Positions 41,315 to 43,812 of a DNA stretch of 64,000 bases are shown piece after piece. This DNA is from Arthrobacter sp. MYb214. Its GTDB lineage: Bacteria; Actinomycetota; Actinomycetes; Actinomycetales; Micrococcaceae. The stretch lies in assembly GCF_002979865.1 (NCBI RefSeq), contig NZ_PCPZ01000001.1, positions 310,001-374,000 of the forward strand, given 5' to 3'. The notes below the pieces were generated by a model. That model did no database searches. It saw only the letters and a list, made by a program, of their open reading frames with translations, and was not told the DNA's origin. Position numbers and translations under genes: made by a program. Position 1 is the first letter of the stretch. Every line of letters starts with the position of its first letter.

Positions 41315-41356
41315 GCGGCGTGTTTCCAGTATTTGGAAACACGCCGCTGCTGCTTT
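41315..41356 (+). terminator. Terminator of rpmE2
   Basis: Arms GCGGCGTGTTTCCA (41315-41328) and complement (41334-41347), then GCTGCTTT. Confidence 0.88.
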
Positions 41357-41377: not shown

Positions 41378-42012
41378 TGACTGAAAAATGTTTTCACGGA
41401 ACCGTCTAAGAGGATTCGTTTTTCGCGCCACGATACGCATCGCGGCATCTTGGCAGTTTCCTGGATGTGCCAGTGACTGAAAAATATTGTCAGCAGCGTC
41501 CGCCCCAGCGTCTTCCGGCTCAATAGCCGTCGGGGCGGCAGGAGATGACTGAAAAATGCTCTCACTTAACTGACTAGGAGGATTCCTTTTTCGCGCCGTG
41601 ATGCGCTAGTGGCATTTTGGTAGTCGTCTCGATGCGCCAGTGACTGAAAAATATTGTCAGCAGCGTTCGCCCCAGAGTCGTTCGGCGCAATAGCCGTCGG
41701 GGCAGCCGGGGATGACTGAAAAATATTTTCACGGAACTGTCGTAGAGGTCCCGTTTTTGGCACAGCGGTGCGCATCGGGCATTTTGGCAGTTGCCTGGAG
41801 GCGCCATAGACTGAAAAATATTGTCAGGAGCGTTTGCCCAGAGCTTTTCGGTGCTATAGCCGTCGGGGTTTCCAGTGGCGGCTGAATAAGGATTCGCTGA
41901 CTCGTCGAAGCAGACGTCTTGGCCGCACTGCTCCGAGCAACTGGCTCCATCGCCGTTGCGTGAATGGTGTTATTGGTGGTGTGGAGGTGCTGGTGACTGA
42001 AAAATTCTGTCA
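41378..42012. repeat. Seven-copy 19-bp repeat array in 167-bp higher-order units
   Basis: The 19-mer TGACTGAAAAATATTGTCA or a close variant starts at 41378, 41474, 41546, 41641, 41713, 41808 and 41994. Ends are symmetric (TGAC...GTCA in the majority form). Spacings are 96, 72, 95, 72, 95 and 186 bases: two kinds of spacer alternate, giving a 167-base repeat with two sub-units. The 95-base spacers contain related text ending with GGCATTTTGGCAGT-like sequence; the 72-base spacers share CAATAGCCGTCGGGGC. Many minus-strand frames run open through the array but their products are just repeats of FFSH-type peptides. There is no gene in this 750-bp region. Confidence 0.9.
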
Positions 42013-42042
42013 CCCAAAAACCGGTCAATCGGGATAGCGTCC

Positions 42043-43641
42043 TCAGCCTGTTTCCTTCTGGCCGTCATCTGGCGGCGATTCAGGACCGGGATCCTCGTCT
42101 GGAATGTCGACGCGAGGCTTGAGCCCAAGTACCCTGCGTACTTCTGCCGTGAGTCGAATATGCGGCAAAGGAATGACCTTAGGGCGCTCTGGGCAATGAT
42201 CATTTACATGATCGAATTGGTCCACACGCTTGACGCTTTCCGGAATAACGAGTGCGCTCAGCCCGTGTGGAGTCACCCACATCTTGGATCCGTCAGGACG
42301 CGGAACGACTTTCCAACCCAATGCATGCTTGAACATTTGATGCTGCTTGCACAGCAGATGCGTATTGTCCCTGGTCGTATGCCCTCCGTGAGCCCAGCCA
42401 TTTATATGGTCAATCTCGGAGCGGTCAGCTGGACGGCGACAGCCGGGGAAGCAGCAATGCTCATCGCGGTGCCGTAACAGATCCTTGAGGCTCTGCGAGG
42501 GCCGGTAGCGCCTTCGCTCGACATCTATCGCGGCGCCAGTCCATGGGTCGGTCAGCACGCGCTGGAACGAAGGCGCATCCTTTGCCAACACCAATGCGAC
42601 CCCCAGTGGGATGGGGCCGTAGCCTTCCAGGTCAGCCACGGTCCTTGTAGGATCCGCCAGCATTTCCACCGCGGGAATCGTGATGGATACCCGTGGCTTG
42701 AGGGGCGTGCCTTCCCGGTCCGGCCAGCCGTTGAGGATGATGTCTGCAAAGGCGTCCGCTTCTATTTGCTCCCGGGTGCGGGGATCCTGCGGATCGTTAT
42801 GCTGATCAGCTAGCCACTTCACGGAGTTCTTGATGGAATGAATCACTGCGGCACTGTTGTAGTACTTGAGGGTGGACATGCCATTTTCGTTATCCCATAG
42901 CGTGAGCTTGCGATTCTTTTCAGACTTCTTGTGCCTTTGTTCGGCGGCCTCCGGGCACATCCTGTCATGGAACCGGCGTGCGCGTTGGTATATCGCGTCA
43001 TCAGACGCAGTCTTCGCCATGGGCAACAGCACGCGTTGCATCTGCATGATTTGTTCGGGGAGCAAGTCCTGCGAATACTTCACGATGCCATGCGCTGCCT
43101 TGGACGTGATCTCTCCTGCAGCCAGAGCCGTGAGGGTTTCCTTGCAGGCGTAGCGAAGACCCTTGGCATAGAACATCCGCTTGCCTACCATGCGAGGGGT
43201 CTCACGCAGCGCGACAGCCGCTTCTGCGATGAAGTTGGAGTTGATGACCTGGTCACTGCCGCGGTCAACGCCATAGTATTGAGCACTTTTCCGAGCCTCG
43301 CGTTCCTCCTCCTCGGTAGTGGTCCCCGCGGTGGCGATCATATCGGCAAATGATTCACTGACTTGTTCTACTGAATCGGCCAGCAGCACAGATGTCATTG
43401 CATCGAGGGTGCTCTGAATGCGTTGGATCTTCTTCAGCCGTTCGAGGGCGTCGTCGGGGCCATTGAGCGGGCCCGCGTCGTAGAGCTCATCTGCCAATTG
43501 CTTCAGCGGACCATGGAACAGGTGATGTTCGAGATGGTCGCTGAATAACGAATCCTTGTGGGATTCTGTGCGAGTGCCAGCTGGGGGCAACGGTAGACGA
43601 TGTTCATCATCGTCGTCATGGATGAAATCGGGTATAGCCAT
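42043..43641 (-). CDS. DUF222/HNH endonuclease domain protein (13E12-repeat type)
   Basis: A 532-residue protein with the DUF222 domain (about residues 60-330) and a C-terminal HNH nuclease, the architecture of the mycobacterial REP13E12 family. HNH motif region: HCCFPGCRRPADRSEIDHINGW, AHGGHTTRDNTHLLCKQHQMFKH, containing the two Cys, the DH and the N-H pair. The N-terminal region carries RMFYAKGLRYACKETLTALAAGEITSKAAHG. C-terminus is Pro/Asp-rich. Such proteins are present in many copies in actinobacteria, with no proven function; they are thought to be mobile or nuclease-related. ATG 43641. Seven-copy repeats lie immediately downstream of its stop. Confidence 0.9.
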   Translation of the reverse strand: MAIPDFIHDDDDEHRLPLPPAGTRTESHKDSLFSDHLEHHLFHGPLKQLADELYDAGPLNGPDDALERLKKIQRIQSTLDAMTSVLLADSVEQVSESFADMIATAGTTTEEEEREARKSAQYYGVDRGSDQVINSNFIAEAAVALRETPRMVGKRMFYAKGLRYACKETLTALAAGEITSKAAHGIVKYSQDLLPEQIMQMQRVLLPMAKTASDDAIYQRARRFHDRMCPEAAEQRHKKSEKNRKLTLWDNENGMSTLKYYNSAAVIHSIKNSVKWLADQHNDPQDPRTREQIEADAFADIILNGWPDREGTPLKPRVSITIPAVEMLADPTRTVADLEGYGPIPLGVALVLAKDAPSFQRVLTDPWTGAAIDVERRRYRPSQSLKDLLRHRDEHCCFPGCRRPADRSEIDHINGWAHGGHTTRDNTHLLCKQHQMFKHALGWKVVPRPDGSKMWVTPHGLSALVIPESVKRVDQFDHVNDHCPERPKVIPLPHIRLTAEVRRVLGLKPRVDIPDEDPGPESPPDDGQKETG

Positions 43642-43812
43642 AGTTAATTATCCTGCCGGCAACAGACAGTTTGGCCCGGAAATCCGCGGAATGTGGAAGT
43701 ATTATCGAATATTTATTCGATTGTTATCCGGCGTCGAATGTTGCCACTGCGAACCACCGAATCCGGGGGCGCGTGGATTCGACTAGTGGGCAGCCGGGGA
43801 TAGAATGAAACC

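Follow-up and report, generated by a model that had tools for sequence, protein, structure and literature searches.

The window analysed here is a stretch of 64,000 nucleotides from Arthrobacter sp. MYb214 (contig NZ_PCPZ01000001.1, positions 310,001 to 374,000). An array of seven 19-bp sites lies at 41378-42012, beside a gene for a protein of the DUF222/HNH (13E12) family. Array and gene form a module between the rpmE2 terminator and lplA (context c1), and the array probably provides recognition sites for the adjoining protein. The coordinates are collected in Table 1.

Table 1. Features of the module and its left border (positions in the window)
Feature	Position	Strand	Basis or remark
rpmE2 terminator hairpin	41315..41347	+	outside module
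Whole module: array, gene and ~135 bp upstream	41378..43777	-	empty-site comparison with relatives
Site 1, TGACTGAAAAATGTTTTCA	41378..41396	+	outermost; at left edge of module block
Two 167-bp duplication units	41444..41777	+	78% identical
Site 2, TGACTGAAAAATATTGTCA	41474..41492	+	
Site 3, TGACTGAAAAATGCTCTCA	41546..41564	+	
Site 4, TGACTGAAAAATATTGTCA	41641..41659	+	
Site 5, TGACTGAAAAATATTTTCA	41713..41731	+	
Site 6, AGACTGAAAAATATTGTCA	41808..41826	+	
Site 7, TGACTGAAAAATTCTGTCA	41994..42012	+	gene-proximal
DUF222/HNH protein, 532 residues	42043..43641	-	Pfam PF02720 and PF01844 over cut-off
HNH nuclease region, residues 380-445	42307..42504	-	DH..N..H and zinc Cys/His residues conserved
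Predicted ParB/Noc-like helix-turn-helix domain, residues 120-246	42904..43284	-	Spo0J profile match; model fold
TTCCACA, degenerate TTATCCACA (DnaA-box-like)	43692..43698	-	~59 bp upstream of start codon

The array and its DUF222/HNH gene

The seven sites and their spacings of 96/72/95/72/95/186 bp are exactly as described in the first-pass annotation, and all seven share a single orientation. The half-site TGACTGAAAAAT is nearly invariant in the array and the other half-site is looser. The array begins 30 bp past the rpmE2 terminator hairpin and ends 30 bp short of the DUF222/HNH stop codon (42043-42045), and these borders also agree with that annotation. Growth, in part, by duplication of a 167-bp unit, which had been proposed as well, is borne out by the two units (41444-41610 and 41611-41777) and by partial third copies. 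Between the units the sites are 91% identical (69/76) and the spacers 72% (157/218). The array as coding sequence has been rejected, since 167 bp is not divisible by 3 and the repeats shift the reading frame.

A search of the 3.72-Mb genome with the 19-mer at up to three mismatches returned ten matches, namely the seven of the array, one at C14:241881 and two weak ones with three mismatches; the reversed-pattern control returned none. The match at C14:241881, the sole other good copy in the genome, lies immediately past the 3' end of a paralogous DUF222/HNH gene. The seven-site array is far beyond chance. Adjacency of 19-mer copies to DUF222/HNH genes had been set beforehand as the test of the proposed association, and the copies do adjoin such genes.

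Both Pfam matches of the protein (PF02720, E=2e-18; PF01844, E=8e-5) place it in the DUF222/HNH family. Its N-terminal region is helical; residues 120-246 form a domain, followed by a beta-rich part and the HNH motif, which is intact and conserved in all copies compared. The profile of residues 120-246 has Thermus Spo0J (ParB) as its top match in the PDB (E=6.3e-4), and the whole-protein profile matches Spo0J at E=0.005. A model of the whole protein gave no significant fold match. The model of residues 120-246, with a predicted local distance difference test score of 89, was matched by Foldseek to ParB (probability 0.98), Spo0J (0.91) and Noc (0.87) at about 2.6 A over 80-90 residues, with 2.5 A over 87 columns among these matches. 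The sequence profile and the predicted fold indicate the same family, and the central domain is predicted, and only predicted, to have a ParB-type fold resembling the ParB/Noc helix-turn-helix (HTH). A few substitutions in the ParB/Noc HTH region are known to switch specificity between the parS and Noc-binding-site (NBS) palindromes that ParB and Noc bind (PMC7383237). Pfam scans found no Rep or RuvC domain in the protein (the IscB model was far under cut-off) and no HUH/Y1 transposase domain in the protein or in family members. The ParB/sulfiredoxin N-terminal CTPase domain was absent among the best-matched Pfam families of the 68 members scanned, and the window locus has no parA neighbour, its neighbours being rpmE2 and lplA. 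A PADLOC scan gave no match.

Distribution in Glutamicibacter and matched site types

DUF222/HNH genes of the window family are present in 18/18 genomes of the window's genus, Glutamicibacter, and the locus sample comprised 40 gene regions from the genus plus L141, another locus from G. uratoxydans. Outside a group of loci linked to signal recognition particle (SRP) RNA, dyad-symmetric sites about 19 bp long come after the gene at every locus save L099, which is cut by a contig end. The first of them, the counterpart of site 7, usually lies 21-33 bp past the stop codon, as it does in most homologs with an intact stop. Sites were called by a symmetric weight matrix, with 900 bp of 3' flank taken at each of 25 array-bearing loci. 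The 22.5 kb of 3' flank contained 88 near-palindromes; the upstream and coding sequence, 209 kb in total, contained 5, which makes the 3' enrichment about 160-fold. When each locus was left out in turn, with identical sites also removed, at least two 3' sites were found in 24/25 loci and at least two 5' sites in 0/25. Between orthologs the sites are 75% identical and the spacers 61% (p=1e-13). In addition, the L069 array also grew through unit duplication.

The sites have a common frame of TGA, an AT-rich core and TCA, and the letters between differ by protein clade. Clade A sites, those of the window included, read TGAc(A/T)..TTTTCagTCA, and CGG clade sites read TGACGGAaatttTCCGTCA. Further types occur at L069 (TGAACATATTTTTCGTTCA), L077/L078 (TGAcTgAaATTTTCAtTCA), L079/L080 (TGATCAAA...) and L097/L098 (TGAACA...TGTTCA). 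There are at least six types in total, each matched to a protein set. In a maximum-likelihood tree the site type tracks protein clade, not genome or chromosomal place, and for 53 of the 54 clade A and CGG sites the nearest non-orthologous site belongs to the same clade. L064 and L062 lie about 1.5 kb and 9 kb, respectively, from a transporter gene that in seven further species has the CGG-clade gene next to it; despite this neighbourhood, both have clade A proteins with clade A sites. Two types are found together in seven genomes, of which six pair a clade A array with a CGG one and the seventh (G006) a GAAC (L069-type) array with a CGG site, and each array matches the clade of its adjoining DUF222 gene. 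The two-type genomes and the shared neighbourhood are stronger arguments than the clade correlation. Only residue K154 is suggestive of recognition-helix co-variation: every clade A protein has it, and no other protein of the alignment does.

Several palindromes and motifs were seen apart from the arrays. A few dispersed CGG-type palindromes occur in other species (near position 2501 of L198, L204, L206 and L211); some of them, which form long hairpins where genes end or between convergent genes, are possible terminators, and others are unexplained. A similar near-palindrome lies at 2501 of L199 and L216, upstream of a gene for an mshA-like glycosyltransferase in two species. The gluQ palindrome beside SRP-linked paralogs was dropped, as it is dictated by the coding sequence VNEFSVH. 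The DnaA-box-like TTATCCACA, with at most one mismatch, occurs within 250 bp upstream in 17 of the 41 DUF222/HNH loci (e.g., L062 and L092-L095), mostly at -59 from the start codon or at -46 reversed. It is about 20-fold enriched over flanking DNA and may be part of the promoter.

Gain, loss and copying of the module

In G013 and most of the other relatives the module is missing as a block and only a short spacer separates rpmE2 from lplA, so that the stretch from about 41378 to 43777 appears to be an insertion here or a loss elsewhere. G. nicotianae shares the rpmE2-lplA insertion with 3 sites versus 7; absence of the array from a close relative retaining the gene had been named in advance as a ground for doubt, and this relative has kept both. 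In context c2 about 2.1 kb with gene and array is replaced by 175 bp in G013, and in context c3 about 2.2 kb with gene and array is replaced by 370 bp in G003.

Genome G001 (strain MYb213) has two copies (c4 and c7) in unrelated flanks. Counted from position -78 relative to the start, they share 96.8% identity across 1292 bp; the shared tract has one end at this position and the other inside the array. The G001 and G010 orthologs at the copied locus are about 90% alike. In G010 the second place is occupied by an orphan array that lacks the gene, and in G005 both are missing. The middle of the second G001 copy was reconstructed from contig ends because the assembly is broken inside the repeat. 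The G001 pair reflects one recent event of intragenomic copying between loci, in either direction.

After about position 3378 of L266 (G010), a different gene follows the orphan array where DUF222/HNH would be. In G. creatinolyticus (G009), L117:3199-3969 is an HNH-only family fragment beside lplA without the HTH domain, and the short stretch that follows shows no evident palindrome. Viral contigs contained no relative that would indicate a phage vehicle, relatives in plasmid and phage records are all below 40% identity, and a plasmid search with the array gave no match.

A candidate self-recognising module and its alternatives

The cis linkage, the sites kept above spacers, the clade-matched sites, the gain and loss as a block, one copying event, the prediction of a ParB-like fold and the intact HNH motif form the established base. 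The array probably serves the adjoining ParB-like HNH protein as a set of recognition sites in cis. Binding of the sites by this protein is well supported by inference from cis linkage and clade-matched sites, and HNH cutting at the array with cut-driven copying is less certain. As a mechanism, a DUF222/HNH dimer would bind each imperfect palindrome via the ParB/Noc-like HTH, as ParB does on parS, and the HNH domain would nick or cut the DNA at the array or close to it. Repair of this break from another module-bearing locus would copy or spread gene and array as a unit in a homing-like gene conversion, and the same repair would duplicate or delete array units. Such a homing or gene-conversion module, in which a ParB-like nuclease brings along its own recognition sites in cis and combines binding, cutting and copying, is the likeliest explanation of the whole, and we regard it as evenly balanced whether it is correct. 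The first-pass annotation thus stands in its reading of a recognition array of the nuclease, in unit duplication and, as a prediction, in that of the dyad-symmetric sites as bound by a dimer. Its further suggestions are not supported: a REP-like (repetitive extragenic palindromic) dispersed mobile element does not agree with sites that mostly stay within the flank 3' of the gene to which they belong, and a plasmid-type iteron would need a Rep protein and closer spacing than 72-186 bp.

Several observations weigh against the module as described. The Foldseek probabilities of 0.69-0.98 come with weak E-values (0.46-2.3, best 0.46), and the profile was not significant against a single host ParB sequence. 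The residues strictly distinguishing clade A from CGG show no concentration in the HTH (3/27). The site-clade correlation could also stem in part from joint vertical descent of gene and array. Classical homing nucleases spare the locus that encodes them, yet the sites here adjoin the gene. Most SRP RNA-adjacent paralogs keep the gene without an array, having lost it or never had one, and the array is therefore not essential to the protein. The same scan of 54 more distant DUF222/HNH loci of other genera found no such array, and two-copy palindromes at these loci are not clearly commoner 3' than 5'; as far as searched, the array is confined to a genus-level subfamily.

It is possible, but rather unlikely in our view, that the DUF222 protein binds its own array for control or containment, be it autoregulation of the gene or its neighbour, anchoring or titration of a potentially harmful nuclease, with the copying due to ordinary homologous recombination between paralogs. 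Cis linkage and clade-matched sites would be equally expected, ParB/Noc-type proteins usually bind and spread rather than cut, and at c2 and c3 the array is in addition upstream of the following gene. However, the sites are 3' of the gene and outside the promoter, as the lack of paired 5' sites at all 25 loci also indicates, the neighbour at c1 is convergent, and conservation of the HNH motif in all copies suggests that catalysis matters. The seven two-type genomes, in which each array fits the adjoining DUF222 clade, make a single host DNA-binding protein fit badly. It is thus improbable that the sites serve some other regulator or a nucleoid protein of the host, or work as terminators in both directions, with the DUF222 gene merely adjacent; the few dispersed CGG-type palindromes, some of them long hairpins between convergent genes, would suit this explanation, but orphan occurrences are rare, no T-run follows the sites and no terminator call falls on them. 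The gene rpmE2 is often Zur-regulated. Zur-type or other host-regulator boxes were rejected, as site type tracks the DUF222 clade inside single genomes.

The gene-strand fold of the window array (z=-3.1 vs 20 shuffles) and a weak HNH similarity to IscB would be expected if the array were transcribed and acted as RNA, through hairpins in the 3' untranslated region or as an IscB-like guide RNA. This is highly improbable, and an RNA role is not supported: over 22 arrays, sense and antisense folding do not differ (z -1.7 vs -2.0, p=0.44), palindrome mismatches show no G-U excess (27 G-U vs 44 A-C), the array has no Rfam match and the protein lacks RuvC. That the repeats are neutral duplications hitchhiking with the gene is scarcely credible, although the window and L069 arrays grew by unit duplication; sites are conserved above spacers within and between genomes, and the dyad form and TGA/TCA ends are kept across clades with unalignable spacers.

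Among known systems, the module is like RAYT/REP in linking a protein to short, co-varying palindromes beside its gene, but it has no HUH/Y1 transposase and its palindromes are not spread genome-wide in large numbers. Like free-standing HNH homing endonuclease genes, it consists of a nuclease gene gained, lost and copied with presumed recognition DNA, and the presence/absence polymorphism and inter-locus copying of such genes are found here (empty contexts c1-c3; G001). Unlike them, it has an uninterrupted recognition site, and tandem intact sites stay beside the gene. At the module, no intron or intein and no phage context was seen. To our knowledge, no cis palindrome array has been reported for the mycobacterial REP13E12 elements, which are set apart from the module by the literature alone. 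They share the DUF222/HNH family and multi-copy loci with gene conversion; in M. tuberculosis REP13E12 loci are gene-conversion hotspots, and they were described in 2026 as without defined biological function (PMC13061034). The module shares with ParB-parS and Noc-NBS the ParB/Noc-like HTH, clustered imperfect palindromes near the gene and specificity diverging between sister proteins (cf. PMC7383237). Unlike these, it has no ParB N-terminal CTPase or ParA neighbour, its sites (consensus TGAnnnAAATTTnnnTCA) are unrelated to parS, and an HNH is attached.

DUF222/HNH genes are abundant in actinobacteria, including REP13E12 of M. tuberculosis, and the matched protein-site sets with the predicted ParB-like domain provide a first testable target for a family of unknown role. 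If the nuclease acts on its own array, the module would be a minimal self-recognising, self-copying element on a partition-protein fold. Tentatively, and with some doubt, DUF222/HNH proteins may be ParB-derived site-specific nucleases with a parS-like array of their own, the two together being a self-copying DNA unit that spreads through nuclease-driven gene conversion and shifts specificity by protein-site co-evolution; if true, the gene conversion of the REP13E12 family would thereby be explained.
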